Below are positions 5,304-51,632 of a stretch of 64,000 nucleotides of DNA, one piece after another. How positions within the stretch are numbered: the first letter of the stretch is position 1; every line of letters begins with the position of its first letter. The position numbers were made by a program, and so were the translations under genes. Below the pieces are notes generated by a model. The model was not told the DNA's origin, searched no databases, and saw only the letters and a list, made by a program, of their open reading frames with translations. Source of the DNA: Flavisolibacter longurius (lineage in GTDB: Bacteria > Bacteroidota > Bacteroidia > Chitinophagales > Chitinophagaceae); contig JACJGO010000012.1 in assembly GCA_014163555.1 (NCBI GenBank), forward strand, positions 62,001 through 126,000, read 5' to 3'.

Positions 5304-5322
5304 ACGTTTGCTGCTACGAATT

Positions 5323-5351
5323 AAGCCACCTGGAAACAGGTGGCTTTTTTT
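5323..5351 (+). terminator. strong intrinsic terminator after the GH20 gene
   Basis: The arms AAGCCACCTG (5323-5332) and CAGGTGGCTT (5337-5346) pair perfectly around a GAAA tetraloop, and a T tract runs to 5351. Confidence 0.92.
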
Positions 5352-5478
5352 ATGCGGTATGCCTTAATGCAAGGAATCAAACGGCAAGGAATAAACGTAT
5401 TATGGTTGGTTGGAATTCTTGTTCTGCCAGCAGAAGCCTGTCGCAGATTTTTGTACCTTACCCTTCATTGAAGCCGGT

Positions 5479-8724: not shown

Positions 8725-9264
8725 TTATGCTTGAAGAATAACCGTTTTCACCGGAGTTGCGCCAAGGTAGCGGCCCGGAACCAGTTCATAATGAAAAATA
8801 TCGCCCATTACCGGTTTAGAGGTCAGGTAGCCCTGGATGGTAAGGTTTTTCGCCAGTTTGTAAAAGGCCAGTACATCTTCCGGCGCCTGTTTGTTTTCCA
8901 GTGCTGTCAGTACCTGCGCTCTTTGCGCAGCGGAAGCTTTTAGAAAGGTTGTCCCGTGTTTTTCTTTTACCAGGTCATCGAGTGCTTTGAGTCCTTTGGT
9001 AAAGGTTTGCTGGTCTTCTTTTTCGTAACAGTCGTCCAGCATGCGCAGCGCAAATAGATGCGCATAGGTGTCTTTTGCTCCCGGAGTGGCTGAAGCGGGT
9101 AGAATGGTTTCGGCCAGTTCGGCCAGCGTTTTTTCCGCTTCCAGGGAAAGTTTCATGTTTTTTAGCAGAAAAGAAGATTTGCTCTCCTGTTCCCCGCAGG
9201 AGGGTAGGATTGCTGTTCCTGCTGCCATGACAAAAAGGTATTTTAAAGCACGTCTGCGTTCCAT
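8725..9264 (-). CDS. Tat-exported lipoprotein, gluconate 2-dehydrogenase subunit 3 family
   Basis: A 179-residue small subunit that accompanies GMC dehydrogenases. I set the start at the ATG at 9264 (MERRRALKYLFVMAAGT), rejecting the upstream frame to 9369, because it places a twin-arginine motif and hydrophobic stretch at the N terminus, followed by a lipobox-like LPSC. The mature part has the family pattern LAELAETILPASATPGAKD, an internal helical region with Cys/Tyr (DDCYE) and a C-terminal 'PVPGRY'-like block (ELVPGRYLG). In known complexes this subunit carries the GMC partner through the Tat system and holds it at the membrane. It is first in a two-gene operon with the GMC gene. Confidence 0.88.
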   Translation of the reverse strand: MERRRALKYLFVMAAGTAILPSCGEQESKSSFLLKNMKLSLEAEKTLAELAETILPASATPGAKDTYAHLFALRMLDDCYEKEDQQTFTKGLKALDDLVKEKHGTTFLKASAAQRAQVLTALENKQAPEDVLAFYKLAKNLTIQGYLTSKPVMGDIFHYELVPGRYLGATPVKTVILQA

Positions 9265-9592
9265 ATCAGTTTTCGAATAAAGTGGATGAACAGGTTCGAT
9301 GATAAACGATACCGATGAATGTAAGAATTCTTTGCAATACTGTTTTGCTATACAATTTCGCGTTGGCAAGCTAAGGCAACGAAAAATTTGCTGCTGGTAT
9401 TTTTTTCACCGACTTCAATATTTTTTTAGTTTGTATGCAGCAACTAATAGCTCATTTTTGTCCATTTCTTTATATGTGGATAAAACTTTAAAGCTTTTTT
9501 TTGAAAAATCTTTGTTAAATAAAAAATGAGTTTTACCTTTTTTCTGGTTTTGGTTCACATTCCTCCATTCAATTAATTAAAAACGATTGTTT
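9265..9592. other. divergent promoter region between GMC operon 1 and susCD operon 1
   Basis: About 330 AT-rich bases separate divergent starts. It holds the promoter motif of susC 1 (9457-9490, listed separately). A 76-codon frame at 9299-9529 overlaps that promoter and encodes an unconvincing protein, so I do not call it. Confidence 0.6.
9457..9490 (+). promoter_or_regulatory. putative promoter of susC 1 (TTTG-N20-TAAAACTTTA)
   Basis: TTTG (9457-9460) is followed after 20 bases by TAAAACTTTA (from 9481), about 110 bases before the ATG. The stretch GTGGATAAAA (9476-9485) recurs upstream of the second susC gene in the same relation to a TTG element, which argues that it is functional rather than chance. 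Confidence 0.45.
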
Positions 9593-12500
9593 ATGCACTT
9601 CAAGCCAACTGCTCCGCGGTTATGGTTGACAATGTCCCTTCTTTTTCTAAGTTCTCTATTGCTTGCACAACAAAAACGGGTAACGGGTAAAATCCTGGGT
9701 GAAGACGGGAGGCCTGTTGCCGGTGCAACTGTAACGGTAAAAGGAACAACCAGTTCTACAATTACAAGTGAAGACGGAAATTTCGCTTTCACGGTTCCGG
9801 CCACGGCTACAACCCTTGTAGTTACCTCTGTAGGATTTGATGTTCAGGAAATACCGATTGGTTCCGGTGAAAACCTAAGCGTTTATCTGCGTCAAGGGGC
9901 CGGAGCGCTGAATGAAGTAGTTGTAACGGGTTACACCAGTCAGCAACGCAGAAGCATTACCGGTGCGGTATCGTCCATCAAGGGTACACAGCTACAGGCT
10001 GTGCAAACCGGTAACGTAGAACAACAGTTCCAGGGCCGTGCACCAGGTGTGGTGGTGATTACTTCCGGTCAGCCGGGTACCGGCAGCCAGGTACGGATCA
10101 GGGGCTTTAGTTCCTTTACCGATAACTCCCCGCTCTACATTGTAGATGGTGTTCCCATCTTTACGTCCGAGCACCTGAGTGCTTTTGATATTGAATCGGT
10201 GACGGTGCTGAAAGATGCCGCTTCGGCTTCCATCTACGGGGCCCGTGCTTCGGCTGGCGTCATCCTGATTACGACGAAAAAGGGAAAGGCCAGCAATAAA
10301 GTAAATGTGAGCTATGATATGTCCTACGGCCTTACCGTGCCGGGCAAAGGCATTGACCTGTTAACGCCCCAACAGCAGGCTGACCTTACGTGGCAAGCCA
10401 TGCGGGCAGCCGGCCAAACACCAACCCATGAACAATATGGCTCCGGGGCAAATCCCGTATTACCGGATTACCTGGTGGTGGGTTCGTCAAATGGTTTATC
10501 CGGATTGTCGCCGAACGATCCCCGTTTGAATCCTGCACTTTTTAATACCAATTTTGATAATGGCCCCATCTACCAGGTAATCCGTGCTAACAAAGCCGGT
10601 ACCGATTGGTACGATGAAATGACGTCCACAAGGCCCATTCAGAACCATACGCTTGGTTTTAGCGGAGGTACGGACAATTCAAAGTATTACACCAGTTTTA
10701 GTTATTACAATGAGCAAGGCCCGGTGATCGGAACATTTCTGAAGAAATACATCTTCCGCGCCAATACCGAATTCAAGATCAAAAACCGGGTGCGCATTGG
10801 TGAGAACTTCCAGTTTTCCAACCGGCAGAATCCCAATATTGGCGGACCGGCCGGCGAAAATGATATCATGTTTGCGCTGACCATCAACCCCCTGATCCCT
10901 GTGTACGATGAAGGGGGTGGATTTGCCGGTACAGTTGCCAAAGGATTCAACAACTCTACCCAACCGGTTGCCCGTCGTCTGCTTTCCCGCGACAACAAAG
11001 GTTCCGCCAATTTTATTTTTGGTAATGCGTATGCGGAAGTGGATATCATCGACAAACTTGTATTCCGTTCCAGCTTTGGCGGTTACCTGGGGAATGGAAT
11101 GAGTCGCTTTATTAACTACCGCACTTACTGGAATTCAGAAAATGTGGGGAACACAACATTTGGAGAGAGTGCAAATGAATTCTCGGGTTGGACATGGACC
11201 AACAACGTGCGTTATGAAAGAGATTTTGGTGTGCACAACGTAAAGGCTTTGGCTGGTATTGAAGCCGTGGCGGATGGGAGCTTCCGGGGTCTGGGAGGTC
11301 AGGGATTGAACCCATTCACTAATAGCTTCAACTTTCTAACTATTACCAATACAGCCAACAGCGGCAGGGATGTTCAAAGCAATGGTAGGCCAATGACGAA
11401 GCTCTATTCGCAATATGCCAAAGTAGATTATGACTATAACAACAAGTACCTGTTCAGCGGTACTATCCGCCGCGACGGTGCCTCTGTGTTTGGCGAGGAT
11501 AACAAGTACGGTATTTTCCCGGCCTTTTCCCTCGGATGGCGGGTAACGGCAGAGGAGTTTATGAAATCCGCTACCTGGATCACCGATCTGAAAATCCGTG
11601 GCGGCTGGGGTAAAATGGGGAACTCCCGCCCGGTAACACCCAACAACCTCTTTAACACCATCGGTAGCACGGCTACGTATGGGTATGACTTGGGTGGAGC
11701 CAATACATCCACTTCTCCTGGTATAGCCATTGGTGGTATTGGCAACCCGGCGGCAAAATGGGAAGCTAAAACCACCACCAACATTGGCTTTGATGGTACC
11801 TTCTTTAATAGTCACCTGGATGTGATTTTCGACTGGTACACGGCTGAAACATCCGACCTGCTGTTTCGCCAGGAACTGCCCGCAACGGTGGGTATGGCAA
11901 GCTCGCCGCTGGTAAACATTGGCGCCATGAAGAATACAGGTATTGATGTAATGCTCACCTATCGCAACAGGGGTGGACGGAATTTCCGTTACGAAGCTGA
12001 CCTGATCTTCACCAAATACAATAATGAAATCACCAAGGTCTCCGACATTGTTGATTATTTCGATGTGCAGTTTTCCGGCCGTCTACCGGGCGCCATTGCC
12101 CGCAATGCCATCGGAAATCCCGTCTCGGCTTACTACGGTTATCAGGTAGTAGGCCTGTTTCAGGATGCTGCCGATGTTACCCGTTCGGCCACGCAGGATG
12201 GTGCAGCCCCCGGTCGTTTCAAGTATGCTGATATCAATAACGATGGCAGAATCACACCGGATGATCGTACCTATCTGGGAAGCCCGAACCCTGATTTTAC
12301 CTATGGATTTAATACAAGGGTATTCTTTGGCGCCTTTGATTTTGAAGCCCTTTTTTATGGCGTGCAGGGAGGCGAAGTATTCAACCTGACAAGATGGTTC
12401 ACTGACTTTTATTCTTCCTTTACAGGTATTGGAAAATCATCACGGGTGTTGAATGCATGGACCCCGACAAATACCAATACAGATATACCACGTTTTGAAG

Positions 12501-12790
12501 CCGTTTCGAACTTCAGTACCAATGGTGCTTCCAACTCGTACTATGTAGAGGATGCCTCTTATTTACGCATGCGCAGTGCCAAACTGGGATATACGCTCCC
12601 CTCATCGCTGACCAGCAAGGCCGGTATCGACAGGCTGCGGGTGTTTTTCCAGGCAACCAACCTGTTCACCATTTCTAAGTACACCGGTACCGATCCTGAG
12701 GTAAGTGGCGTGGATACAAACTTTGGTATTGACGTGGGTAACTATCCGGCCAATCGCCAGTTTTTGGTGGGTGTCAGCTTAGGTTTATAA
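9593..12790 (+). CDS. susC: SusC/RagA-family TonB-linked outer-membrane transporter 1
   Basis: A 1065-residue outer-membrane receptor. Order: signal peptide (to ~22, LLLAQQ), carboxypeptidase-regulatory-like beta domain (~24-100: GKILGEDGRPVAGATVTVKG), the family linker LNEVVVTGY (~108-117), a plug domain with the VRIRG and PLYIVDGVP blocks, then a 22-strand barrel to the C terminus, which ends in a hydrophobic strand (FLVGVSLGL). SusC proteins import oligosaccharides with energy from TonB, under a SusD lid. The ATG at 9593 is preferred to the TTG at 9587. The SusD partner follows after 31 bases. The cargo cannot be read from sequence. No FecI/FecR regulator lies nearby, so control is likely elsewhere. 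Confidence 0.96.
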   Translation: MHFKPTAPRLWLTMSLLFLSSLLLAQQKRVTGKILGEDGRPVAGATVTVKGTTSSTITSEDGNFAFTVPATATTLVVTSVGFDVQEIPIGSGENLSVYLRQGAGALNEVVVTGYTSQQRRSITGAVSSIKGTQLQAVQTGNVEQQFQGRAPGVVVITSGQPGTGSQVRIRGFSSFTDNSPLYIVDGVPIFTSEHLSAFDIESVTVLKDAASASIYGARASAGVILITTKKGKASNKVNVSYDMSYGLTVPGKGIDLLTPQQQADLTWQAMRAAGQTPTHEQYGSGANPVLPDYLVVGSSNGLSGLSPNDPRLNPALFNTNFDNGPIYQVIRANKAGTDWYDEMTSTRPIQNHTLGFSGGTDNSKYYTSFSYYNEQGPVIGTFLKKYIFRANTEFKIKNRVRIGENFQFSNRQNPNIGGPAGENDIMFALTINPLIPVYDEGGGFAGTVAKGFNNSTQPVARRLLSRDNKGSANFIFGNAYAEVDIIDKLVFRSSFGGYLGNGMSRFINYRTYWNSENVGNTTFGESANEFSGWTWTNNVRYERDFGVHNVKALAGIEAVADGSFRGLGGQGLNPFTNSFNFLTITNTANSGRDVQSNGRPMTKLYSQYAKVDYDYNNKYLFSGTIRRDGASVFGEDNKYGIFPAFSLGWRVTAEEFMKSATWITDLKIRGGWGKMGNSRPVTPNNLFNTIGSTATYGYDLGGANTSTSPGIAIGGIGNPAAKWEAKTTTNIGFDGTFFNSHLDVIFDWYTAETSDLLFRQELPATVGMASSPLVNIGAMKNTGIDVMLTYRNRGGRNFRYEADLIFTKYNNEITKVSDIVDYFDVQFSGRLPGAIARNAIGNPVSAYYGYQVVGLFQDAADVTRSATQDGAAPGRFKYADINNDGRITPDDRTYLGSPNPDFTYGFNTRVFFGAFDFEALFYGVQGGEVFNLTRWFTDFYSSFTGIGKSSRVLNAWTPTNTNTDIPRFEAVSNFSTNGASNSYYVEDASYLRMRSAKLGYTLPSSLTSKAGIDRLRVFFQATNLFTISKYTGTDPEVSGVDTNFGIDVGNYPANRQFLVGVSLGL

Positions 12791-12821
12791 TATTCCTGGA
12801 TAACAATTTAAAAAAAGAAAA

Positions 12822-14579
12822 ATGTCAAATAAAAGAATAAAATATGTAGGTTTCATTTTAGGCGTTCCGCTGGCGGCTTCACTCATTTTTGTGGCCTGTA
12901 AGCGGGATTTCCTGAACCAGGAAACCATCGGTGTGCTGACCGAAGCGGAAGCACAAAGTGCCAAAGGTGCACGTCAATTTTTAACCAGTACCTACGCGGC
13001 CCTGAAAGGCTCGGGTTGGGAAGGCGGCGTGAGCAACTGGGTTTACGGTAGCATTGTTGGTGGTGATGCCAACAAAGGCTCCGATGCCGGTGACCAGGCG
13101 GATATTGTACCGATTCAGCAATTGACGGCCACACCAACCAATAACTATTTTAACGTCAAATGGCGGTCGCTGTATGAAGGCATTGCCCGTGCCAATGCCA
13201 CTATCCGTGTGACGTCTAAACTTACGGATAAGGACATCTCCGCTGCAGAGAAAACGCAGATCCTGGCACAGGCACGGTTCCTTCGCGGGTTCTATCATTT
13301 TGAAGCCAAAAAAATGTGGGATAACATTCCATATGTGGATGAAACCATCGAAGCCGCCAATGCAAAAGTGGGCAACTCCAAAGACTGGACACGCATTATG
13401 GAAGACCTGGACTTTGCCCGCAAAAATCTGAATGCGGTACAGGACCAGGTTGGCAAAGTGAACAAGTGGGCTGGTGAGGCGTATTATGCCAAAGCACTGC
13501 TTTTCCAAGGTAAATATGCAGAGGCTTTGCCAATACTTACCGATGTAGTCAACAACGGCAAAACTTCCCGTGATTTGAAATATAATTTGGCCCCGGCGTT
13601 TCATGATCTGTTTAATGCCGATAAGGACAATGATCCTACGGTACGGGCAGAGAGTGTGTTTGCTTACGAAGCTTCTATCAATGACGGCTCTGGCGGTTTG
13701 AATGCTAACTACGAACACATTCTCAACTTTCCTTACAATGGAGGCCCGGGTGGCTGCTGTGGATTTTTTCAGCCAACGTTTGAACTGGTCAACTCCTTCC
13801 GCACAAGTGCAACCGGTTTACCGCTATTGGATGGTTCCTATAACGTGGGTGCCAACCAGGTAAAAAATGACCAGGGCCTTGAATCTTCCAGTACGGGATA
13901 TACACCGGATGGCGGTAACCTGGACCCGCGCCTCGATTGGACTGTTGGTCGAAGGGGAATTCCTTATTTGGATTGGGGGCTTCATCCGGGTAAGTCCTGG
14001 ATACGCGACCAGGGATTTGGCGGTCCATTTGCTCCTAAAAAGAATGTTTATTACAAAGCCCAGGAAGGCAAGCTTACCGATGGCACCAACTGGACCAGCG
14101 GTTTGACAGCTACCAATTACAAGATCATGCGCTTTGCAGATGTATTGTTGATGGCCGCTGAAGCTGAAGTGGAAGCCGGTAGCCTGGAAAAGGCACGTGA
14201 ATATGTGAACCGCGTTCGTACAAGAGCTGCTGTAGGTCGCGTAAAGGATGCTGCAGGAAATGATGCCGCCAATTATGTGATTAGCAATTATACTACTGCA
14301 TGGACCAATAAAGATGTAGCCAGACAAGCGGTTCGTTTTGAAAGAAAATTGGAACTGGCCATGGAAGGGCATCGCTTCTTTGACCTGGTACGGTGGGGCG
14401 TAGCCGATCAGGCTATCAATGCCTTCTTAACGTATGAAAAAACGAAGCTTCCAACACCTTATGGGGCTGCTACGTTTACAAAGGGGAAACACGAATATTT
14501 CCCGATTCCGCAACGGCAGATTGATTTGTCAAGCACAGGAGGACAGTCAACCCTAACCCAAAATCCAGGATATCAATAA
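12822..14579 (+). CDS. susD: SusD/RagB-family nutrient-binding lipoprotein 1
   Basis: A 585-residue surface lipoprotein with a lipobox ending at Cys26 (LIFVACKRDFLNQ) and the SusD alpha-helical TPR-like fold. Typical blocks are the N-terminal LTSTYAALKG region, RFLRGFYHFEAKKMWDNIPYV and the C-terminal RFERKLELAMEGHRFFDLVRWG, followed by the usual ending YFPIPQRQIDLS...LTQNPGY. It caps the SusC barrel and captures the glycan. It is co-transcribed with susC and is followed by a strong terminator before the FG-GAP/ASPIC gene. Confidence 0.96.
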   Translation: MSNKRIKYVGFILGVPLAASLIFVACKRDFLNQETIGVLTEAEAQSAKGARQFLTSTYAALKGSGWEGGVSNWVYGSIVGGDANKGSDAGDQADIVPIQQLTATPTNNYFNVKWRSLYEGIARANATIRVTSKLTDKDISAAEKTQILAQARFLRGFYHFEAKKMWDNIPYVDETIEAANAKVGNSKDWTRIMEDLDFARKNLNAVQDQVGKVNKWAGEAYYAKALLFQGKYAEALPILTDVVNNGKTSRDLKYNLAPAFHDLFNADKDNDPTVRAESVFAYEASINDGSGGLNANYEHILNFPYNGGPGGCCGFFQPTFELVNSFRTSATGLPLLDGSYNVGANQVKNDQGLESSSTGYTPDGGNLDPRLDWTVGRRGIPYLDWGLHPGKSWIRDQGFGGPFAPKKNVYYKAQEGKLTDGTNWTSGLTATNYKIMRFADVLLMAAEAEVEAGSLEKAREYVNRVRTRAAVGRVKDAAGNDAANYVISNYTTAWTNKDVARQAVRFERKLELAMEGHRFFDLVRWGVADQAINAFLTYEKTKLPTPYGAATFTKGKHEYFPIPQRQIDLSSTGGQSTLTQNPGYQ

Positions 14580-14599
14580 CAGGTTTTCTCTCTTAATTA

Positions 14600-14642
14600 G
14601 AACAAAGAGACTGCGCAAGCCGTCTCTTTGTTCTTTAAATTT
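14600..14642 (+). terminator. intrinsic terminator between susD 1 and the ASPIC lipoprotein gene
   Basis: Perfect 12-bp arms GAACAAAGAGAC (14600-14611) and GTCTCTTTGTTC (14622-14633) enclose a 10-base loop. The T-rich stretch tttaaattt follows. It lies only 24 bases before the next start, so it probably lowers rather than abolishes ASPIC transcription, or the ASPIC gene has its own promoter. Confidence 0.85.
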
Positions 14643-14665
14643 ATAGCAGTCAAGCACCGGATTAC

Positions 14666-17600
14666 ATGAAAAAGGCCACCACCATTTTTACGCTAGCCAT
14701 CTTGTTTCTTTCCTGCACCACTAAAACATTTAAAAAGCTGGATGGAGACGACACAGGTATCCGATTTGCCAACACCATCACCGAAAACGATTCCATTAAT
14801 ATTCTCAACCTGGAATATGTGTATAACGGAGGCGGGGTGGCCATCTCCGATTTTAACAACGACGGTCTGCAGGATGTATTTTTTACGGGCAATATCGTTG
14901 GCAACCGTATTTACCTGAATAAGGGTGATATGAAATTTAGCGATGTGACGGAAGCTGCTGGCATTGCTGCAGAGGACCGGTGGAATACCGGCGTCGCCAC
15001 GGTTGACGTCAATAACGACGGGTGGATGGATATCTATGTCTGTGCTTCCATCAAAAAAGATTCTGCCAAACGGGCCAATATGCTTTTCGTCAACAAAGGC
15101 CTGGATAAAAAAGGGTCCCCGGTGTTTAAAGACGAAGCGGAAGCATATGGCGTAGCTGATAAGGGTTATTCAACCATGGCCGCTTTTTTTGATTACGACA
15201 ATGACGGCGACCTTGATCTTTATGTGCTGACCAATAAAATGGCGGAAAGGGATATGTATCCCAATCAATATCACAAAAAAATAAGTGACGGGTCTTCGCC
15301 TACTACCGACCGGCTGTACCGCAACGACTGGGATACGGCTGCCGGACGTGCGGTGTTTAAAAATGTTTCGGCGCAGGCCGGCATCCTGATGGAGGGCTTT
15401 GGGCTTGGTTTAAATATTTGCGACATCAACAAAGACGGGTGGAAGGATATTTATGTTACCAACGATTTTCTGACCAACGACCTGTTGTGGATCAACAACC
15501 GGAACGGAACCTTTACCAATAAGGCTGCAGAAAGCTTTAAGCATACGTCTTATTCGGCGATGGGCAACGATGTTGCCGACATCAACAACGATGGTTTGCC
15601 GGATGTGATTGCGGTAGACATGCTGCCTGCCGACAATGTGCGAAAGAAAATGATGATGCCGGCCAATTCGTATCAAACCTATATGAACAACGAGGCCTTC
15701 CAATACGAATACCAGTATGGTCGCAATACCCTGCAGCTAAACATGGGAAGCCTTCCTGTAAAAGACAGTATTCAGGTGCCCCTGTTTGGCGATATTGCTT
15801 TTTTTGCCGGCATTGCCGAAACCGACTGGAGCTGGACGCCGATGGTTGCCGATTTTGACAACGATGGCTACCGCGACCTGATTATCACCAACGGTTTTCC
15901 CAAAGACATTACCGACCGCGATTTTATGACCTATCGCGTGAATGCCACCAGCGTGGCGTCGAAAGAAGAGATCCTGGAGCAGATACCGGAAGTCAAGCTT
16001 CACAATTATGTATTCCGTAACGAAGGAAACCTGCGGTTTGCAGACAAAACCGTGGACTGGGGCCTGGAAGAACCGAGTTTTTCCAATGGCGGCGCTTACG
16101 GTGACCTGGACAACGATGGTGACCTTGACCTGGTGATCAACAACATCAACGATGAAGCGTTTGTATATGAAAACACATCACACGGCAGGGAGAAAGGCCA
16201 CCATTACCTGCAGGTGAAATTTGTCGGAGAGGGGCAGAATAGGGAAGGTATCGGTGCCTGGGCTGAGATCTATTATGGCGATGGCCTGCAGCAGGTGTAT
16301 GAAAATTCACCTTACAGAGGATTTTTGTCCACCGTACAATCGCTGGCGCATTTTGGCCTGAAGGATGTTGAAAAAATTGATTCCCTGGTGATACGTTGGC
16401 CGAATGGAAAAAAACAGGTATTGCAGGACGTTAGTGTTGATCAGGTGATCACAGCCAATATGAAAGATGCGACGCTTGCCGGAGGTTTTGATGTACCGGT
16501 TGTGCAGCCTTTGTTTGCCGATCTTACCGATACACTCCGCATTCCTTATGTTCACAAAGAGCTTGATTTCCCTGATTTTACCGTGCAGAAATTACTTCCA
16601 CATAAACTATCGGAATACGGTCCCGGCATGGCAGTAGGCGATGTGGATAACAATGGTTTGGACGACATTGTATGTGGTGGTTCATATTCGTATAGTCCTG
16701 TTGTTTTGCTGCAACAGAATGGCGGCAAATTTGTTCCGAAAGAGTTATTGCCGGGGGCAAACAACCAAACCAAAACGTCGGAAGACCTGGGCCTCCTGTT
16801 GTTTGATGCCGATGGCGACACCGACCTGGATCTTTACATTGCCAGCGGCAGTTATGAAAACAAACCCAATACGGCTTCGTATGCAGACCGGTTTTTTCTG
16901 AACGATGGAAAGGGAAATTTTTTACAGGACAGTGCTGCGCTGCCACAAAACTTCACCAGCAAATCCTGTGTACGGGCAGTGGACTATGACAAGGATGGCG
17001 ACCTTGACCTTTTTTTGGCCGGCCGGGTGGAGCCCTGGAATTATCCCAGGCCGGTTTCCAGTTTTCTCTACCGCAACGATAGCCGGAACGGGAAGGTGCA
17101 GTTCACCGATGTAACAAAACAGGCTGCATCGGCACTGATCAATAAAGGCCTTGTTTGTGATGCGGTATGGACCGATTTTGATAATGACGGCTGGACAGAC
17201 CTGGTGCTTTCCGGCGAGTGGATGAGCATTACGTTTTTAAAAAATGAAAAAGGCCGTTTCAGCGATGTAACACAAAGCACCGGGTTAGCCGGCGAAACGG
17301 GCTGGTGGAACAGTATTGCCCCGGGTGATTTTGACAACGATGGCGATATAGATTACATCGTAGGCAATGTGGGACAGAATACATTTTACCGTGCCGATGC
17401 ACAACACCCAGCCCGGATCTATGCCAAAGATTTTGACAACAACGGCGATTATGATGCCATACCAACACTTTACCTGGCCGGCCAGGACGGGCAGCGTAGG
17501 GAATACCCGGCCCAAACCCGCGATGACCTGATCAAGCAAATGATCTCCATGCGGGCAAAGTTTCACACCTACCGTGCCTTTGCCTTTGCTACCATTGACA

Positions 17601-18220
17601 GCGTACTTTCAAAAGAAGACCGCAAAGATGCATTGATATTGCAGGCGAATCGCTTGCAGTCTTCCTTTGTTCGCAACAAGGGCAATGGCCAGTTTGAGCT
17701 GGTTCCACTTCCGGTTCCGGCACAGCTTTCTGCCATCAACGGCATGGTGGTGGATGATTTTAACGGCGATGGCAACCTGGATGTAGTGATGAATACAAAC
17801 GATTATGGCACCGAAGTTTCTGTTGGCCGTTACGATGCCCTGAATGGTTTGTTGCTGTTGGGCGATGGAAACGGTGGATTTGCAGCCGCGTCTATGGCAA
17901 GGAGCGGCATTTGCATACCGGGAAATGGAAAAGCAATGGTGAAGATGCAGATGGGTGAAAACAAGCCTGTGATTGTTGCAGCGCAAAATCGTGGCGCACT
18001 TAAAGTTTTTTCTCCCCATACGGCTGTTAAACTGGTTCCGGCTACGCCCGGGGATGTTAGTGCTCACCTACGATTGAAAGATGGGCGGGTGCAAAAGCAG
18101 GAGTTTTATTATGGGGCATCGTTTTTATCACAATCGGGGCGGTTTATACCGGTTGGTGCTGCCGTTCAATCTATTGAAATTCGAAATAACAAAGGGCAAA
18201 CAAGAACAGTCAGCTTATAG
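14666..18220 (+). CDS. giant FG-GAP/VCBS-repeat lipoprotein with ASPIC/UnbV domain 1
   Basis: A 1184-residue lipoprotein (lipobox LFLSC, Cys17). Residues ~45-490 hold repeated Ca-binding loops of the form D-x-N/D-x-D-G-x-x-D (DFNNDGLQD, DVNNDGWMD, DYDNDGDLD, DINKDGWKD, DLDNDGDLD), the mark of beta-propeller FG-GAP/VCBS repeats. An ASPIC/UnbV domain lies at ~530-595 (GAWAEIYYGDG ... SLVIRWPNGKKQ). A second propeller follows (DVDNNGLDD, DADGDTDLD, DFDNDGWTD, DFNGDGNLD). The family is often mislabelled after cartilage acidic proteins or as RNA-binding; its function is unknown, but the location with SusCD suggests a cell-surface glycan-binding or scaffold role. Two paralogues lie at 29888-36614. 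Confidence 0.9.
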   Translation: MKKATTIFTLAILFLSCTTKTFKKLDGDDTGIRFANTITENDSINILNLEYVYNGGGVAISDFNNDGLQDVFFTGNIVGNRIYLNKGDMKFSDVTEAAGIAAEDRWNTGVATVDVNNDGWMDIYVCASIKKDSAKRANMLFVNKGLDKKGSPVFKDEAEAYGVADKGYSTMAAFFDYDNDGDLDLYVLTNKMAERDMYPNQYHKKISDGSSPTTDRLYRNDWDTAAGRAVFKNVSAQAGILMEGFGLGLNICDINKDGWKDIYVTNDFLTNDLLWINNRNGTFTNKAAESFKHTSYSAMGNDVADINNDGLPDVIAVDMLPADNVRKKMMMPANSYQTYMNNEAFQYEYQYGRNTLQLNMGSLPVKDSIQVPLFGDIAFFAGIAETDWSWTPMVADFDNDGYRDLIITNGFPKDITDRDFMTYRVNATSVASKEEILEQIPEVKLHNYVFRNEGNLRFADKTVDWGLEEPSFSNGGAYGDLDNDGDLDLVINNINDEAFVYENTSHGREKGHHYLQVKFVGEGQNREGIGAWAEIYYGDGLQQVYENSPYRGFLSTVQSLAHFGLKDVEKIDSLVIRWPNGKKQVLQDVSVDQVITANMKDATLAGGFDVPVVQPLFADLTDTLRIPYVHKELDFPDFTVQKLLPHKLSEYGPGMAVGDVDNNGLDDIVCGGSYSYSPVVLLQQNGGKFVPKELLPGANNQTKTSEDLGLLLFDADGDTDLDLYIASGSYENKPNTASYADRFFLNDGKGNFLQDSAALPQNFTSKSCVRAVDYDKDGDLDLFLAGRVEPWNYPRPVSSFLYRNDSRNGKVQFTDVTKQAASALINKGLVCDAVWTDFDNDGWTDLVLSGEWMSITFLKNEKGRFSDVTQSTGLAGETGWWNSIAPGDFDNDGDIDYIVGNVGQNTFYRADAQHPARIYAKDFDNNGDYDAIPTLYLAGQDGQRREYPAQTRDDLIKQMISMRAKFHTYRAFAFATIDSVLSKEDRKDALILQANRLQSSFVRNKGNGQFELVPLPVPAQLSAINGMVVDDFNGDGNLDVVMNTNDYGTEVSVGRYDALNGLLLLGDGNGGFAAASMARSGICIPGNGKAMVKMQMGENKPVIVAAQNRGALKVFSPHTAVKLVPATPGDVSAHLRLKDGRVQKQEFYYGASFLSQSGRFIPVGAAVQSIEIRNNKGQTRTVSL

Positions 18221-18291
18221 GGAATGGGAGAATCCGGTATAAACAATTGCCAATTCTTCAATACCTTGAGCGGAACTGCAGACCCGTTGAA

Positions 18292-19776
18292 ATGAAACGA
18301 ATGAAGAAAATTGCTGCCCTGCTGGTATTGTTATCCGCAGGTGCCTTTTACTGGAGCGGATGTACGAATGGTGAGGAGGAAGGATATACCCTGGCGAAAA
18401 CACACTGTCAATCCTGTCACCTTTTACCGGAACCCAGTCTGCTGAATAAAAAAACCTGGTTCAATCATGTTTTACCAAAGATGGGTGGACTTTTGGGATT
18501 TGAACGCTTTGACAACAGCGCCTATTTTGAAAGTGGCCGGACACATGGAGCAATGTCGCTCACTGACTGGAACAAGATCGTTTCGTATTATGTTGAAAAT
18601 GCCCCTGACTCTCTCAAGGGTGAAAAGCCGGAAGCCATAACTGTAGGAATACAAGGCATGTCCGTTTCTGCACCACAGTTTGCCGTTAAAGATCCTGCCA
18701 CAACATTTGTAGGAATAAATTCCAACACAAAACTCTTGTTTGCCGATGGGGTTTCCCAAAATTTGTACAGGCTATCAACAGAGAGAACGTTGATGGATTC
18801 TGTCAAGGGAGAAAAAGGGATTGTACATGTGCGGGAGAAAGATTCAATTGTAGCTATACTTTCCATGGGTGTGCTTTATCCTTCGGATGAAAAAAGCGGT
18901 AAGCTCATTGTACATGACCTTCGAGCCGGTGATTCACGCACCTTGCTCGACAGCCTTCAACGGCCGGTATTTGCGGAGTACAGTGACTTGAATACTGATG
19001 GACAGGAAGATATTATTCTCTGCGAATTTGGAAACTTGTCCGGCCAGTTAAGCTGGTACCAGAACAAGGGCAATACTACCTACCAAAAACATGTACTCAG
19101 GGCCTTGCCAGGCGCCATCCGTACACAGGTGGTAGATTGGAACAAGGATAATCGTCCCGACATTGTGGCCATGCTGGCCCAAGGAGATGAAGGCATCTTT
19201 ATCTATGAAAACAAGGGCGGAGGTAAATTTGCAGAAAGCCGCTTACTGCGCTTGCATCCTTCCTACGGCTCCAACTATTTTGAGTTGGCTGACTTTAACG
19301 GTGACGGACACTCGGATATTTTGGCCACAAACGGTGATAATGGCGATTACCCGCCTATATTAAAGCCTTACCATGGCATCCGCATATACCTGAATGATGG
19401 AAAAAACCGTTTTCAGGAAGCCGTTTTTTTACCGGTAAATGGCGCCAGCAAAGCCGTTGCGAGGGATTTTGACGGCGATGGCGATCTTGATATCGCCTCC
19501 ATATCTTATTTTCCTGATTACGATTCCCGGCCTTCGGAAAGTTTCTTATATTGGGAGAACAAAGGTGGATTGTCCTTCCGGCCGTTTACCATAAAGGAAG
19601 CCACTGCCGGCCGCTGGCTGACCATGGAAGCCGGTGATGTGGACGGAGATGGAGATTTAGACATTTTGTTGGGCAATGCCAAATTTACATTGGGATATAT
19701 ACCAGACTGGCTGATGAAACAGTGGAATACTTCTGCTCCTTCTTTGCTTGTTATAAAAAATTTACGCAAAGGCTGA
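18292..19776 (+). CDS. surface lipoprotein combining a CxxCH haem motif with FG-GAP repeats
   Basis: A 494-residue lipoprotein (lipobox YWSGC, Cys24). Directly after the lipid anchor comes a single cytochrome-c-type haem motif, CQSCH (39-43), in the context KTHCQSCHLLPEPSLL. Residues ~220-480 carry FG-GAP/VCBS Ca-binding loops (DLNTDGQED, DWNKDNRPD, DFNGDGHSD, DFDGDGDLD, DVDGDGDLD). I chose ATG 18292 because the upstream frame from 18247 adds a non-signal leader. The combination suggests a surface electron-transfer or peroxidase-partner protein on a beta-propeller scaffold. It lies 71 bases after ASPIC lipoprotein 1 and 35 bases before the haloperoxidase-like gene, so the three are probably one transcript. 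Confidence 0.85.
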   Translation: MKRMKKIAALLVLLSAGAFYWSGCTNGEEEGYTLAKTHCQSCHLLPEPSLLNKKTWFNHVLPKMGGLLGFERFDNSAYFESGRTHGAMSLTDWNKIVSYYVENAPDSLKGEKPEAITVGIQGMSVSAPQFAVKDPATTFVGINSNTKLLFADGVSQNLYRLSTERTLMDSVKGEKGIVHVREKDSIVAILSMGVLYPSDEKSGKLIVHDLRAGDSRTLLDSLQRPVFAEYSDLNTDGQEDIILCEFGNLSGQLSWYQNKGNTTYQKHVLRALPGAIRTQVVDWNKDNRPDIVAMLAQGDEGIFIYENKGGGKFAESRLLRLHPSYGSNYFELADFNGDGHSDILATNGDNGDYPPILKPYHGIRIYLNDGKNRFQEAVFLPVNGASKAVARDFDGDGDLDIASISYFPDYDSRPSESFLYWENKGGLSFRPFTIKEATAGRWLTMEAGDVDGDGDLDILLGNAKFTLGYIPDWLMKQWNTSAPSLLVIKNLRKG

Positions 19777-19811
19777 CGGTCTGCGTCGGTCCCAACGCCA
19801 AATGGATTCAT

Positions 19812-21152
19812 ATGAAGCATGTTTTTTTACTGGGCCTGCTATCGCTGACACTTTTCAGTTGCACCGAAAAGAAAACCGCAGATCCGGCTCTGGCTACCGA
19901 TGTGGATCTCCTGCACCGGAATGAAGACCAGCTCACAAAAGTGATCATATACGATGTGTTTTCGCCACCGGTTTCCAGCCGGATATATGCCTATACCTCA
20001 TTGGCGGCCTATGAGGCTATTCGCCACCAGGACCCGCAGAGTGAATCCATCGCTGGCCGCATGCAAGGTTTTGATGCCATGCCGCTGCCGGAGAAAAACA
20101 AGACCTATAATTACCTGCTGGCGGCAACAAGGGCCTATTTTACCGTGGCCGAAAAAGTGACGTTTTCCATTGATAGTTTAAAGCGGTACCAAAACGGCGT
20201 CTATAGGAATTTTAAAGCTTTGCTGGATGAACAGACCTTTCAAAATTCCCTGGCATTTGGCGAAAGCATCGGGAAAAAAGTACTGGAACGCAGCACCAAA
20301 GACATGTACAAGCAAACCCGTGGCATGCCGAAATTTATCGGCAGTCATGAAGCGGGAAAATGGCGGCCAACACCTCCTGACTATATGGATGCTGCCGAAC
20401 CGCATTGGGCCCTGATCAAGCCGATGTTGCTTGATTCTGCAGCGCAGGTTCGTTGTCCTTTGCCTCCGGCTTTCAGTAGCGACAATAAAAGTGCATTTGC
20501 TAAATCGGTCGCAGAGGTATATACCATCACCACCAGCTTAACAGAAGAGCAGAAACAGATTGCCAAATACTGGGATGACAATCCGTTTGTGGTGGAGCAT
20601 TCCGGCCACATGATGTTTGCCAATAAAAAGATCACACCTGTTGGCCATTGGATGGGCATTACCAACATTGCCAGCCGTTTGAAAAAAGCCGACGCCGTGG
20701 AAACTGCCAGGGCGTATGCCTTAACAGCTGCCGCTATTTTTGATGCCATCATTACATGCTGGAAAACAAAATTTGAGCTACAACATATTCGCCCCATCAC
20801 TGTTATCAACGAAACTATCGACCCGGTTTGGCAGCCCTTTCTGCAAACGCCACCGTTTCCCGAACATCCGAGCGGACACAGTGCCATTTCCGCAGCCGCT
20901 GCTACAGTGCTGACTGAATTGTATGGAGAATTTCCTTTTGAAGATACAAGCGATCTCCCCTACATCGGAATGAAGCGATCCTTCCCATCCTTCAATAAAG
21001 CAGCGGAGGAAGCATCTATCAGCCGTGTGTATGGCGGTATTCACTATAAGGACGGGGTAGATGCCGGTGCCACCATCGGTCGGGAAGTAGGAACGCATGC
21101 TATTAAATTGTTCCTGGAAAAAGATGCGCAAAAGGCCGTGGTGGCGAAATAG
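19812..21152 (+). CDS. vanadium-dependent haloperoxidase / PAP2-type lipoprotein 1
   Basis: A 446-residue lipoprotein (lipobox LTLFSC, Cys17) of the PAP2/haloperoxidase superfamily. The cofactor-site residues of vanadium haloperoxidases and acid phosphatases are all present: Lys320 and Arg327 (WKTKFELQHIRP), Ser-Gly-His 354-356 (HPSGHS), Arg405 (SISR) and His411 (GGIHY). Vanadate-loaded members oxidise halides with hydrogen peroxide; phosphate-handling members hydrolyse phosphoesters, and sequence alone does not separate them. The start at 19812 is chosen because it gives the lipoprotein signal; the frame upstream overlaps the previous gene. The neighbours (haem-FG-GAP lipoprotein, thioredoxin-like protein) favour a redox role. 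Paralogues lie at 42555 and 46120. Confidence 0.87.
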   Translation: MKHVFLLGLLSLTLFSCTEKKTADPALATDVDLLHRNEDQLTKVIIYDVFSPPVSSRIYAYTSLAAYEAIRHQDPQSESIAGRMQGFDAMPLPEKNKTYNYLLAATRAYFTVAEKVTFSIDSLKRYQNGVYRNFKALLDEQTFQNSLAFGESIGKKVLERSTKDMYKQTRGMPKFIGSHEAGKWRPTPPDYMDAAEPHWALIKPMLLDSAAQVRCPLPPAFSSDNKSAFAKSVAEVYTITTSLTEEQKQIAKYWDDNPFVVEHSGHMMFANKKITPVGHWMGITNIASRLKKADAVETARAYALTAAAIFDAIITCWKTKFELQHIRPITVINETIDPVWQPFLQTPPFPEHPSGHSAISAAAATVLTELYGEFPFEDTSDLPYIGMKRSFPSFNKAAEEASISRVYGGIHYKDGVDAGATIGREVGTHAIKLFLEKDAQKAVVAK

Positions 21153-21236
21153 AATCCAACTTTTTTGGAACAAATGCCAGCGCTAATTGTGAACCAAAAA
21201 GAAAACACCGTAACCTACGTTACATACCAAAAGCTG

Positions 21237-21731
21237 ATGAAAGAAATAGCACGGTGGGGCAGTTTGTTCTGTTTTTTCTTTCTTCTGGGATCAACGGAAT
21301 TGAAGGCACAAACCAAGGATACACTTCCCCTATTTGGCATGACGCTTTCCAATGGCCGCTATTTTCAAAGCAATGCGATTCCCAAAAATAAGCCGGTGGT
21401 ACTAATTTATTTTGCGCCGGACTGCGACCATTGTCACACACTGATGAACGCATTCTTTCAAAGGGCCAGCGACTTTCAAACTGCTACCGTAGTGATGGTA
21501 ACCTTCAAGCCAGTGAACGAATTGATCGCTTTTGAACGGTCCTACCAAACCAATCAATATCCGCATGTGATTGTTGGTACGGAAGGTGCCGCCCAATGGC
21601 TTCGACGATATTATAGGTTGCAGAGCACACCGTTTACTGCCCTTTATGATAAGGAGGGAAAGCTTGTTGTCAGCTATCGCAAAGACACGCCAGTAGCTAA
21701 ATTGCTGCAGCAGTTAAACAAGCTGTCTTAA
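21237..21731 (+). CDS. exported thioredoxin-fold protein with CxxC
   Basis: A 164-residue product starting at ATG 21237, which gives a hydrophobic signal segment (SLFCFFFLLGSTELKAQ); the earlier TTG/ATG at 21165/21174 would bury it. A thioredoxin fold follows with the redox motif CDHC (63-66) in IYFAPDCDHCHTLM and the cis-Pro block STPFTALYDKEGK. It most resembles periplasmic thiol-disulphide oxidoreductases of the TlpA/ResA type. As the last gene of the susCD 1 / haloperoxidase set, it could keep the CxxCH cysteines of the haem lipoprotein reduced for haem attachment, or handle oxidative damage from haloperoxidase products. This role is inference. Confidence 0.8.
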   Translation: MKEIARWGSLFCFFFLLGSTELKAQTKDTLPLFGMTLSNGRYFQSNAIPKNKPVVLIYFAPDCDHCHTLMNAFFQRASDFQTATVVMVTFKPVNELIAFERSYQTNQYPHVIVGTEGAAQWLRRYYRLQSTPFTALYDKEGKLVVSYRKDTPVAKLLQQLNKLS

Positions 21732-21810: not shown

Positions 21811-22212
21811 ATGTTACACCTGCAAAACGTTCATCACATTGCCATCATTTGCTCCGATTACCTGCGATCGAAAGCTTTTTATACGGAAGTGATGGGATTG
21901 CAGATCATCCGTGAAGTGTATAGAAAAGAAAGGGACTCTTATAAGCTGGACCTGTCCCTGAACGGAAACTATATCATTGAACTATTTTCATTCCCCCATC
22001 CGCCACCACGGCCTTCACGGCCCGAAGCGGCAGGATTGCGTCACCTTGCATTTGCTGTAGAAAATATTGAGGAAACAATTTTTGCCTTGAGCGAAAAAGG
22101 CATAACGGCGGAGCCTATCCGTACTGATGAATATACCGGAAGGCGCTTTAGTTTTTTTGCCGATCCTGATGGCTTGCCGCTAGAATTGTACGAAGTGGAA
22201 ATGCTTCCGTAA
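21811..22212 (+). CDS. VOC-superfamily (glyoxalase I-like, YaeR/GloA2 type) metalloprotein
   Basis: A 133-residue single-domain vicinal-oxygen-chelate protein made of two beta-alpha-beta-beta-beta units. The expected metal ligands are visible: His8/9 (NVHHIAIIC), Glu57 (YIIELFSF), His78 (GLRHLAFAV) and Glu125 (LPLELYEVE). This layout fits the small glyoxalase-like proteins related to E. coli YaeR, whose substrate is unsettled. It has no signal peptide and should be cytoplasmic. It lies 43 bases before gluconokinase in the same direction and may be co-transcribed with the gluconate genes, which would suggest detoxifying a reactive carbonyl made during sugar oxidation. Confidence 0.88.
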   Translation: MLHLQNVHHIAIICSDYLRSKAFYTEVMGLQIIREVYRKERDSYKLDLSLNGNYIIELFSFPHPPPRPSRPEAAGLRHLAFAVENIEETIFALSEKGITAEPIRTDEYTGRRFSFFADPDGLPLELYEVEMLP

Positions 22213-22255
22213 AAAGAAAACAGTTTGCGTACATTTAATCCCTACACACCCTGGC

Positions 22256-23734
22256 ATGCAGCAATCCTATGTACTTGGCCTTGATATCGGGACCGGCAGT
22301 GTAAAAGCGGTAGCCCTGACCCCTGCGGGGAAGGTGCTTCACAGCGGACAGGTGTTTTATACAACCCCCGGGAAAACAGAACAGGATGTGGAACTGATCT
22401 GGCAGGCTTTTCTGCAGTGTATCCGCGAAATGGTAACTACAATACAAACTGCACCCCAGGCAATAGGCCTGAGCAGTGCAATGCACAGCATCCTGGGGGT
22501 GGGTAAAGAAGGGCAGCCTCTGACAAAGGCTATTCTTTGGTCAGATACCCGCAGCACCGAAATTGCCCAGGGACTACGCGGCACGCTTCTCGGCGAACAA
22601 CTTTACCTGGCAACGGGTACACCCATTCACTCCATGTCTCCGCTATGCAAGATCCGGTGGTGGCAGGAAAATGATCCGGCAACATTTTCGGCCGCCTATA
22701 AATTCATCTCCATCAAAGAAGCCATCTGGTACCGGCTGTTGGGTGAATACGTGATTGACTATTCCCTGGCCACGGCAACCGGAATGTTTAATCACCGGCA
22801 GCTCCGTTGGGATGATGCTGCGCTTTCCTTTGCCGGTATAACACCTGATAAACTATCGCATCCGGTACCGGCAACCTATCAAAAAACTAATCTATCATCT
22901 GAAGCGGCCACGTTGTTGGGTATTCCAACCGGTACACCTTTTTTTATGGGTGCCAGCGATGGTTGTTTGGCCAACCTGGGTAGCCTTTGTCTTTCTTCTG
23001 ACGTAGCGGCCGTCACTATCGGAACCAGTGCAGCCGTACGGATCACGACAAAGAACCCGGTGCAGAAACCGGAGCAAATGATTTTTAATTACCTGATGGA
23101 AGAAGGCACATATGTAAGTGGCGGTGGCATCAACAATGGCGGAAATGTATTTCAATGGCTGCTGAACAACCTGTTTATAGGGCATGCATCGGTGAAAACC
23201 TATGACGATCTTTTTGAGCTGCTGGCATCGGTAAAGGCAGGCAGTGAGGGTTTGTTGTTTCTTCCGTACCTGCACGGCGAACGGGCACCCATCTGGGATG
23301 AAAAGAGTTGCGGTGTTTATTTTGGACTAAAGGCCCGTCATGGCCTTGCACACATGGCCAGAGCCGCGGCAGAAGGTGTGGGCTTCGCTTTGTACCAGAT
23401 TCTTTCTCTCCTGGAGGAAGCCTGCGGCCCGGTGCGGCAACTCAGGGTAAGTGGAGGTCTGGTGGAAGCTTCCGCTGTTATGCAGCTTCTTGCCGACGTT
23501 ACAAACAAAGAAGTAGTGGTGCAGCAAACCGATGATGCTTCGGCTATCGGTGCTGCCATGCTGGTACTCAAGGAGTGTGGAATGATTGCTGACTATAACG
23601 CTATTCATTGGGAAGATGGTCAGGTTTATCTGCCGGACGCACATCATGCGGACCGTTATCAAAAATTGTTTACTGTTTATAAAAAGCTGTATCCTCTTCT
23701 GAAAGACGCCATGCATTCCATTCCCCAATTTTAA
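22256..23734 (+). CDS. gntK: gluconokinase, FGGY carbohydrate kinase family
   Basis: A 492-residue FGGY kinase with the N-terminal phosphate-binding block LGLDIGTGSVKAVAL (~8-22), the SSAMHSILGV loop, and the C-terminal ATP-binding FGGY region (RVSGGLVEASAVMQLLAD; later DASAIGAAMLV). The short N-terminal half and the SAMHSIL block fit Bacillus-type GntK gluconokinases more than xylulo- or glycerol kinases. Gluconate to 6-phosphogluconate is therefore the likely reaction. The next gene, 9 bases on, is a GntP-type gluconate permease, which supports that assignment strongly. The pair would take up and phosphorylate gluconate formed by periplasmic sugar dehydrogenases such as the GMC systems in this window. 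Confidence 0.9.
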   Translation: MQQSYVLGLDIGTGSVKAVALTPAGKVLHSGQVFYTTPGKTEQDVELIWQAFLQCIREMVTTIQTAPQAIGLSSAMHSILGVGKEGQPLTKAILWSDTRSTEIAQGLRGTLLGEQLYLATGTPIHSMSPLCKIRWWQENDPATFSAAYKFISIKEAIWYRLLGEYVIDYSLATATGMFNHRQLRWDDAALSFAGITPDKLSHPVPATYQKTNLSSEAATLLGIPTGTPFFMGASDGCLANLGSLCLSSDVAAVTIGTSAAVRITTKNPVQKPEQMIFNYLMEEGTYVSGGGINNGGNVFQWLLNNLFIGHASVKTYDDLFELLASVKAGSEGLLFLPYLHGERAPIWDEKSCGVYFGLKARHGLAHMARAAAEGVGFALYQILSLLEEACGPVRQLRVSGGLVEASAVMQLLADVTNKEVVVQQTDDASAIGAAMLVLKECGMIADYNAIHWEDGQVYLPDAHHADRYQKLFTVYKKLYPLLKDAMHSIPQF

Positions 23735-23743
23735 AACGATTTC

Positions 23744-28264: not shown

Positions 28265-28295
28265 CGAATTGTCATAAAAAAGAAAAGCATTAAAG

Positions 28296-29828: not shown

Positions 29829-29851
29829 GTTTATCAAATTCCTATCTTAGT

Positions 29852-29884
29852 GAAAGGTCATTTTACAATGACCTTTCTTTTTTT
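29852..29884 (+). terminator. intrinsic terminator between susD 2 and ASPIC lipoprotein 2
   Basis: Perfect 10-bp arms GAAAGGTCAT (29852-29861) and ATGACCTTTC (29868-29877) are followed by seven T. The next ATG lies 3 bases after the T tract, so the hairpin also covers any ribosome-binding region of the ASPIC gene. Confidence 0.9.
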
Positions 29885-29887
29885 ACC

Positions 29888-33265: not shown

Positions 33266-33269
33266 AGCA

Positions 33270-39784: not shown

Positions 39785-39851
39785 TGGCAGTCGAATACCT
39801 GCAAAATAAACAATCTGGCGACGGAAAGGAAAACTTTATAACATTCGGTCC

Positions 39852-39882
39852 TTTGCGCTTAAATTAGGTTCTGATACAATTG
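39852..39882 (+). promoter_or_regulatory. putative promoter of the GH65-like gene, start-proximal
   Basis: TTTG (39852-39855), a 19-base spacer and TACAATTG (39875-39882; one mismatch to TAnnTTTG). The ATG at 39889 follows after 6 bases, implying a leaderless or very short-leader mRNA. Confidence 0.5.
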
Positions 39883-39888
39883 TCTGCT

Positions 39889-41919: not shown

Positions 41920-41952
41920 TTTTCCTATCTTGAACTTGCTTTTGAGACCTGC

Positions 41953-42510: not shown

Positions 42511-42554
42511 TTTTTGTTATTCCCATTTTTCTTATCCGAACCAGATATTTCTGT

Positions 42555-43901: not shown

Positions 43902-43912
43902 ACGAAAAAAAC

Positions 43913-45028: not shown

Positions 45029-45074
45029 AGGCTTCAACGATTCTATTTCGCATTTCGAAACTGGCTTAGCGTGC

Positions 45075-45098
45075 TGAGGGGCAGAATGCTGCCCCTCA
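45075..45098 (+). other. perfect hairpin between the two barrel genes, without a T tract
   Basis: Arms TGAGGGGCAG (45075-45084) and CTGCCCCTCA (45089-45098) pair perfectly around AATG. No T run follows, so it is not a typical terminator. It may be a processing, stabilising or translational control element in the operon. Confidence 0.55.
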
Positions 45099-45169
45099 TA
45101 TTGGCTAGTACTGCCCATTATTGCGAATTACTCCTTTTAACGAACCTGCTTACACGTAAAGACAAGATT

Positions 45170-46114: not shown

Positions 46115-46119
46115 GCGCC

Positions 46120-47670: not shown

Positions 47671-47719
47671 CAGCAGTGGCCACAAACAAGTACGATTTTC
47701 AAGTAGCATAAACAACAGG

Positions 47720-47748
47720 GCCCCGGTTTCGACCCGGGGCTTTCCTTT
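47720..47748 (+). terminator. intrinsic terminator after the haloperoxidase cluster
   Basis: Arms GCCCCGG (47720-47726) and CCGGGGC (47734-47740) enclose a 7-base loop and are followed by a T-rich run. Confidence 0.82.
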
Positions 47749-51615: not shown

Positions 51616-51632
51616 GTACGGGTTTGATGGAG

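Follow-up and report, generated by a model that had tools for sequence, protein, structure and literature searches.

Why should a row of genes with the marks of an outer-membrane import system also encode a protein of the haloperoxidase kind? The question is raised by positions 9593-21731, called cassette 1 below, of a 64,000-nucleotide stretch of Flavisolibacter longurius DNA (the window; JACJGO010000012.1, positions 62,001 to 126,000), which lies within contig C3 of a 5.66-Mb genome in 58 contigs that is 99.8% complete. A first-pass annotation had described a candidate undescribed surface module of six same-strand genes separated by short gaps, and the layout stands as described: all six genes are on the forward strand, with gaps of 31-86 bp, and the families are as named. 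What recurs across Bacteroidota is smaller. The core unit, as judged from gene content, is SusC-SusD-ASPIC-VIPO (VIPO, vanadium iodoperoxidase), with the heme-FG-GAP and thioredoxin-like genes as accessories. Linkage of the four core genes is well supported and points to a real, conserved operon type, a SusCD variant built around an already known enzyme family. The features of cassette 1 are as follows:

9593-12790, forward strand: SusC/RagA TonB-linked outer-membrane transporter (TIGR04056, 8e-242, 806 bits; Plug; CarbopepD_reg_2)
12822-14579, forward strand: SusD/RagB surface lipoprotein (PF07980, SusD_RagB, 7e-53)
14600-14633, forward strand: strong stem-loop in the SusD-ASPIC gap (folding z -4.3 for 14580-14665)
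14666-18220, forward strand: ASPIC/UnbV FG-GAP lipoprotein, hereafter ASPIC (PF13517, FG-GAP_3; PF07593, UnbV_ASPIC)
18292-19776, forward strand: hFG, a probable lipoprotein with a cytochrome c-like N-terminal domain containing one CxxCH, and an FG-GAP propeller (PF13517)
19812-21152, forward strand: VHPO1, a VIPO-family PAP2 lipoprotein (match to 4cit, E 1.2e-118)
21237-21731, forward strand: TRX, an exported thioredoxin-like protein with a CDHC site (PF00578, AhpC-TSA; PF13098)

From SusC to TRX the gaps measure 31, 86, 71, 35 and 84 bp, lengths that follow from gene starts reset to the ATG preceding signal-like sequence. Searches against Pfam found no glycoside hydrolase or other carbohydrate-active enzyme (CAZyme) among the six genes, and no phosphatase or phosphodiesterase match besides the PAP2 protein.

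The best match of VHPO1 in the PDB (phmmer) is the Zobellia galactanivorans vanadium-dependent haloperoxidase 4cit/4usz, at the E-value listed above (next entry, 4e-8); the alignment spans residues 35-466 of 476, with 47% identity to the 4cit fragment. The Zobellia enzyme, VIPO1, is a vanadium iodoperoxidase (PMC5064120). As the first-pass annotation had noted, the PAP2 site is complete (K-x6-RP / PSGH / SRxxxGxH). Equivalents of VIPO1 K324, R331, H360, R410, H416, W321 and F353 are present in all 84 homologues of the phylum sample introduced below. Of 80 close homologues, 79 keep the catalytic K, R, H, R and H, the remaining row being cut off. These residue numbers, which we take to be those of the VIPO1 vanadate site, agree with the numbering of the chain once shifted by 8. 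VIPO1 and VHPO1 are thus alike in near-full-length homology, catalytic residues and a lipoprotein-type cysteine, and unlike at two pocket positions, where Y263 and D322 of VIPO1 are F and K in VHPO1. The earlier description of the PAP2 protein as vanadium-haloperoxidase-like can be narrowed: by sequence, VHPO1 is a member by descent of the Bacteroidota VIPO family, and halide oxidation is its predicted activity.

Is the association of such a protein with SusCD a chance arrangement? Recurrence was followed in a phylum sample of 296 genomes, with E <= 1e-60 as the cut-off for a VIPO gene, and in a close set comprising the best 80 of at least 591 confirmed VIPO matches in named genomes. The sample holds 84 VIPO genes in 55 genomes, four of them from the Flavisolibacter genome itself. 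At 63 of the 84, an ASPIC gene is no more than 10 kb away, where about 2.2 such cases would be expected (59 of 80 when own-genome genes are excluded), so that the proposal of a recurrent module rather than a chance row is borne out. For 61 VIPO genes the ASPIC gene is upstream and shares their strand, and for 48 the upstream distance is no more than 1.5 kb. Every one of the 55 VIPO genomes has ASPIC, a gene present in 141 of the 296 genomes overall (hypergeometric p 2e-21, for genomes that are related and events that are not independent). SusC, SusD and ASPIC occur jointly at 31 of the 84 loci, an undercount, since many stretches end too early: upstream ASPIC without SusC is seen at 25 loci, 19 of which end before SusC could appear. 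Furthermore, because close-set and own-genome sequences were the source of the label profiles, the counts are too low for remote SusC, SusD and thioredoxin-like genes; a second SusD profile was seeded by two proteins chosen by position, both of which, together with two of its matches, Pfam later confirmed as SusD-like.

In the close set, ASPIC, SusC, SusD and hFG genes lie within 10 kb of 60, 52, 49 and 28 VIPO genes, respectively, and SusC, SusD and ASPIC jointly at 47. The order SusC-SusD-ASPIC-VHPO, with zero to three genes before the last, was found at 41 of 79 close loci with a simpler gene caller. Of the accessories, hFG is much scarcer in the sample, at 7 of 84 loci (window counted); the thioredoxin-like gene, sought with a narrow profile, is at 4 of 84 sample and 3 of 80 close loci. 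The idea that all six families form a fixed unit is not supported. A SusC-SusD-ASPIC-VIPO row was also seen on a contig labelled as a Gemmatimonas metagenome-assembled genome (L083), through gene transfer or a binning error.

Gene spacing is compatible with cotranscription of much of the row. The ASPIC-VHPO gap has a median of 8 bp (45 close loci) and the VHPO-hFG gap one of 17.5 bp (20 close loci), as would be expected within one transcript. The SusD-ASPIC gap is longer, with a median of 88 bp over 44 close loci. Folding was examined for 40 of these 44 gaps, those of 50-165 bp, and all 40 fold with z <= -2 (median -4.6); the sequences shown vary by locus. The hairpin suggests partial termination or RNA stabilization between SusCD and the downstream genes, and could possibly be a general attenuator of SusCD operons. 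Because a strong hairpin separates SusD from ASPIC, a single continuous transcript of cassette 1 is putative.

The Flavisolibacter genome repeats the pattern several times over. It has eight ASPIC genes at seven loci, each with SusC and a SusD-like gene upstream, two remote SusD-like proteins being confirmed by Pfam. Its four closest VIPO genes all lie in SusCD-ASPIC loci: cassette 1, a second cassette in the window (cassette 2), and contigs C53 (L009) and C32 (L010). Seven more distant PAP2 paralogues are also present, one in cassette 2 and six on contigs C9, C58, C21 and C43, on which a whole-genome search found no ASPIC.

Several locus types can be told apart with a VIPO tree of 98 proteins, comprising all 84 sample rows and 14 of the 80 close rows picked by hand. 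VHPO1 groups with proteins from Flavisolibacter nicotianae (L019), Cnuella takakiae (L020) and Segetibacter aerophilus (L063; SH-aLRT 96), and these three genomes and the window are the four that hold all six families jointly. The first-pass annotation had proposed a search for the six in one order. In these genomes the families are together, and their final genes are not always arranged alike, with TRX preceding VIPO in L019 and L063 and an extra gene between ASPIC and hFG in L020. In a second clade (L009, L121, L122 and L143), SusCD and a monoheme protein precede ASPIC-VIPO, with a thioredoxin-like protein also there in three of the four. The monoheme genes, at L009 8033-9370, L121 4932-6251, L122 4761-6092 and L143 14227-15597, are directly upstream of ASPIC-VIPO. 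The L009 protein, the only one run, has a weak C-terminal Cu-monooxygenase-like match below the Pfam cut-off; no significant solved relative of this type was found, and it is possible that it is a heme-copper surface enzyme. In a third type, which includes cassette 2, glycoside hydrolase genes of family GH65 (11 of 84) or GH37 (10 of 84) are near VIPO, against none at 43 control loci (p 0.016 each). Among the other VIPO genes of the sample, some are accompanied by ASPIC alone, and for 21 of the 84 the fetched stretch shows no ASPIC. A seven-CxxCH cytochrome is seen at L015 (7245-8495) and at Mucilaginibacter loci such as L028, L033 and L091, either next to SusCD-ASPIC or as an opposite-strand neighbor of hFG and VIPO; its profile matches 10 of 80 close loci.

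Has the link with VIPO been kept as ASPIC diverged? In a tree of 60 ASPIC proteins beside VIPO and 47 that are not, 11 changes of state are needed, whereas 100 shuffles needed 34.8 on average and never fewer than 29, so that the ASPIC sequences adjoining VIPO fall in clades. Alongside this test, a Mantel r of 0.77 was obtained (n=60), a value that relatedness among the species confounds. With the ASPICs of L019, L020 and L063, which are of the same VIPO type, the window ASPIC shares 55-57% identity, as against 37-39% with four others of its own genome.

The structurally known enzyme is found in the same surroundings. In a Zobellia-like genome (G236), a VIPO that is almost the same as 4cit along its full length (99% for the fragment) is preceded by three ASPIC genes with gaps below 10 bp, two of them whole and one truncated where the stretch ends. 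The following gene encodes a 299-amino-acid protein with a GyrI-like domain, unlike cassette 1, where hFG and a thioredoxin-like gene accompany VIPO. Four loci of relatives within that family (L112, L114, L132 and L134) read SusC-SusD-ASPIC-ASPIC-VIPO, with a GH37 trehalase downstream. Because of these arrangements, the structurally known VIPO type can be placed in an ASPIC/SusCD context.

What might the propeller proteins contribute? The AlphaFold2 model of the window ASPIC (pLDDT 90.8) has murine CRTAC1 (9etn) as its best Foldseek match (E 2e-26), and 9etn is also the best solved match in a profile search (5e-29). The N-terminal half is CRTAC1-like, and the FG-GAP-rich region that follows is probably a second propeller. 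Like CRTAC1 and integrin alpha, the bacterial protein has an ASPIC domain and an FG-GAP propeller; unlike them, it has the second FG-GAP region, and hFG has an added cytochrome c-like domain. For hFG, modeled with a helical N-terminal domain (pLDDT 89.6), 36 sequences were aligned, namely the window protein and 35 homologues, one cut-off homologue being excluded. The single CxxCH noted in the first-pass annotation is invariant in all 36, as is Cys26 at the N-terminal lipoprotein position, while the strict lipobox pattern fits just 12 of the 36; Met66, suited as a second heme ligand, is kept in 35. Conservation of the CxxCH is not chance, and heme binding is predicted; at E 0.001 Pfam gave no cytochrome match. 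Foldseek ranks CRTAC1 (9etn) first among the solved relatives of hFG, and the sequence profile the secreted esterase 9oee (2.5e-13), followed by integrins and CRTAC1 (0.005). For TRX, the CDHC followed by His (CDHCH) was considered as a heme site and rejected, the Pfam matches being of thioredoxin type.

ASPIC loci away from VIPO genes served as controls, 40 picked from the best-scoring ASPIC matches listed and three from the Flavisolibacter genome. Three of the 43 still have a VHPO match; they were dropped for the ASPIC tree and kept in the census. Open reading frames of at least 150 amino acids with CxxCH within about 8 kb were found at 14 of 40 ASPIC loci without a high-scoring VIPO, at 13 of 57 VIPO+ASPIC sample loci and at 22 of 44 close loci, the last with no clear excess over controls (p 0.19). 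Because such frames are no commoner beside VIPO and ASPIC in the sample than in controls, and not clearly so in the close set, heme proteins are not VIPO-specific, and the heme-haloperoxidase circuit first imagined for cassette 1 receives no specific support.

Two further genes lie upstream of cassette 1, divergent from it:

7021-8718, reverse strand: GMC oxidoreductase (PF05199/PF00732)
8725-9369, reverse strand: gluconate 2-dehydrogenase subunit 3-like partner of the GMC protein (PF13618, 1e-31)

The best PDB match of the GMC protein is the large subunit of fructose dehydrogenase (5e-31). Its homologues adjoin VIPO at 8 of 80 loci in the close set and at 1 of 84 in the sample (the window's own gene being outside the stretch used), and the GMC gene is an optional neighbor of cassette 1, outside the core.

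VIPO and SusCD-ASPIC very probably act as one functional unit. Because a SusCD importer and large propeller proteins share the row of VIPO, surface oxidation or halogenation followed by import is the simplest reading. From the observed genes, families, recurrence and residues one would move to a proposed surface location, halide, peroxide source, substrate and import step, as follows. A SusCD-type import operon would carry its own surface haloperoxidase. SusD, ASPIC, hFG and VIPO, with their lipoprotein-type cysteines, would be displayed on the outer membrane, where the large ASPIC propeller protein may bind substrate or dock the enzyme next to the SusCD transporter. Supplied with hydrogen peroxide and a halide (iodide or bromide), VIPO would form hypohalous acid near the surface, and this would oxidize or halogenate the captured substrate for release or import via SusCD. 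The substrate may be an organic compound rich in electrons, such as a glycan-bound aromatic or a phenolic. In the branch represented by cassette 1, the monoheme propeller and thioredoxin-like proteins may add electron transfer or redox protection. That the purpose of the unit is this oxidative conditioning of imported substrate is given a probability of roughly 0.45. Extending the proposal, a CRTAC1-like ASPIC lipoprotein could couple exchangeable redox proteins (VIPO, the monoheme protein with the weak Cu-monooxygenase-like match, the seven-CxxCH cytochrome and monoheme propellers) to SusCD import, so that Bacteroidota VIPOs, and among them Zobellia VIPO1, would serve nutrient acquisition and not defense or iodine storage; this wider generalization is offered tentatively, with more doubt than belief.

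Several observations weigh against oxidative conditioning. SusC is present at 37 of 43 and SusD at 31 of 43 control loci, and because SusCD accompanies ASPIC without VIPO, the enzyme could be cargo for a separate task. SusC, SusD and ASPIC are even found together more often at controls (31 of 43) than at VIPO sample loci with 7.5 kb on both sides (28 of 71; p 0.001, in part an effect of the cut-off); SusCD-ASPIC is thus the more general unit, which often has VIPO as a cargo. The 21 sample VIPO genes with no ASPIC in the fetched stretch belong here, as does the hairpin, which may uncouple expression. Iodide and bromide are scarce in soil. Finally, the GMC neighbor in the window looks more like a dehydrogenase than a peroxide-making oxidase.

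The main rival places the same chemistry in the service of iodine capture or defense: VIPO would oxidize iodide for its capture, or consume peroxide and turn hypohalous acid on competitors or on a host oxidative burst, and linkage to SusCD would merely put the enzyme on the surface in the right niche. The FG-GAP loops are candidate calcium sites, and the GH37 trehalase and GH65 genes near VIPO could supply glucose. Iodine accumulation by Arenibacter C-21 depends on glucose, oxygen and calcium; a membrane glucose oxidase and a haloperoxidase were proposed for it, and the strain has at least five VIPO homologues (PMC5064120). In the available part of a Zobellia study, vIPO3 was higher on Ascophyllum than on alginate (PMC9296495). 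We nonetheless regard this explanation as unlikely: it leaves unexplained why 61 of 84 VIPO genes lie 3' of ASPIC, often with SusCD; GMC neighbors are rare in the sample, and that of the window is dehydrogenase-like; and several VIPO carriers have soil or freshwater names.

It could also be argued that these are ordinary SusCD-ASPIC glycan utilization loci in which VIPO and the heme proteins are loosely associated passengers. SusCD-ASPIC units without VIPO are common, three of them in the Flavisolibacter genome carrying GH16, GH3 or glucoamylase-like genes; heme genes are as common without VIPO; and the DNA upstream of cassette 1 contains GH20 and GH29 genes (3363-6867), their homologues adjoining just 2 and 4 of the 84 sample VIPO genes, respectively. 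The VIPO-ASPIC link, however, is far above chance and retained through divergence, with gaps of about 8 bp, and we consider loose association decidedly improbable. Least credible is phosphate scavenging, in which the PAP2-fold enzyme would be a surface phosphatase in a PusCD-like phosphate-utilization system. Vanadium haloperoxidases and PAP2 phosphatases have a vanadate/phosphate site in common. Flavobacterium has PusCD systems with phosphatases, as far as the accessible part of PMC8115612 describes them, and these resemble cassette 1 in tying SusCD to chemistry outside the CAZymes; neither PAP2 nor haloperoxidase occurs in the main text of that paper, as far as it was available. Cassette 1 differs from PusCD in lacking a typical phosphatase, having no phosphatase or phosphodiesterase match besides PAP2, and its enzyme is of VIPO descent, with the VIPO-type Trp and Phe kept.

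How does oxidative conditioning by a SusCD-linked VIPO compare with what is already described? SusCD polysaccharide utilization loci likewise have a SusC-SusD tandem and further surface lipoproteins, and cassette 1 departs from them in having no CAZyme and an enzyme of the haloperoxidase family. Arenibacter C-21 belongs to the same phylum and has multiple VIPO homologues, while PMC5064120 does not establish the genes behind its peroxide-dependent iodine uptake. That article is the only open-licence paper found with both "haloperoxidase" and "SusD", and gives SusD by count only. Neither peroxidase nor ASPIC occurs in the accessible part of PMC5613140. In agreement with the claim that the module is undescribed, the open-licence literature yielded no description of SusCD or ASPIC genes with a haloperoxidase, though subscription papers may say more, and no function for bacterial ASPIC/CRTAC1-like proteins. 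The SusCD-VIPO linkage gives these widespread proteins a context. To our knowledge, what bacterial vanadium iodoperoxidases do in nature is an open question, despite one crystal structure. VIPO genes, including the structurally known type, often lie 3' of SusCD-ASPIC, and this provides a direct route to their role, through the substrate that induces and requires the adjoining SusCD. If halide oxidation does serve nutrient uptake, halogen chemistry would be tied to carbon turnover in soil, freshwater and sea.

The second SusCD-ASPIC locus of the window lies downstream of the first:

25301-36614, forward strand: first part of cassette 2, a second SusC, SusD, ASPIC, ASPIC row
38864-49437, mixed strands: second part of cassette 2, with a 306-amino-acid protein (reverse strand), GH65, a 185-amino-acid protein, VHPO2, 371- and 347-amino-acid proteins, PAP2 and a GH37 trehalase
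42555-43901, within cassette 2: VHPO2
46120-47670, within cassette 2: second PAP2 protein, a more distant paralogue

Unlike cassette 1, cassette 2 contains glycan-active enzymes (GH65 and GH37), and VIPO is accompanied by both also at L129, L149, L153 and L164. Between the cassettes, at 21811-25033, lie glyoxalase-like, FGGY kinase and GntP permease genes; glyoxalase and FGGY homologues are also present in the L019 stretch. Further downstream, 50737-57940 holds a GMC oxidoreductase, a gluconate 2-dehydrogenase subunit 3-like gene, two xylose-isomerase-like genes, a GFO/IDH/MocA gene and an MFS-type transporter gene, a set that we take to be keto-sugar pathway-like.

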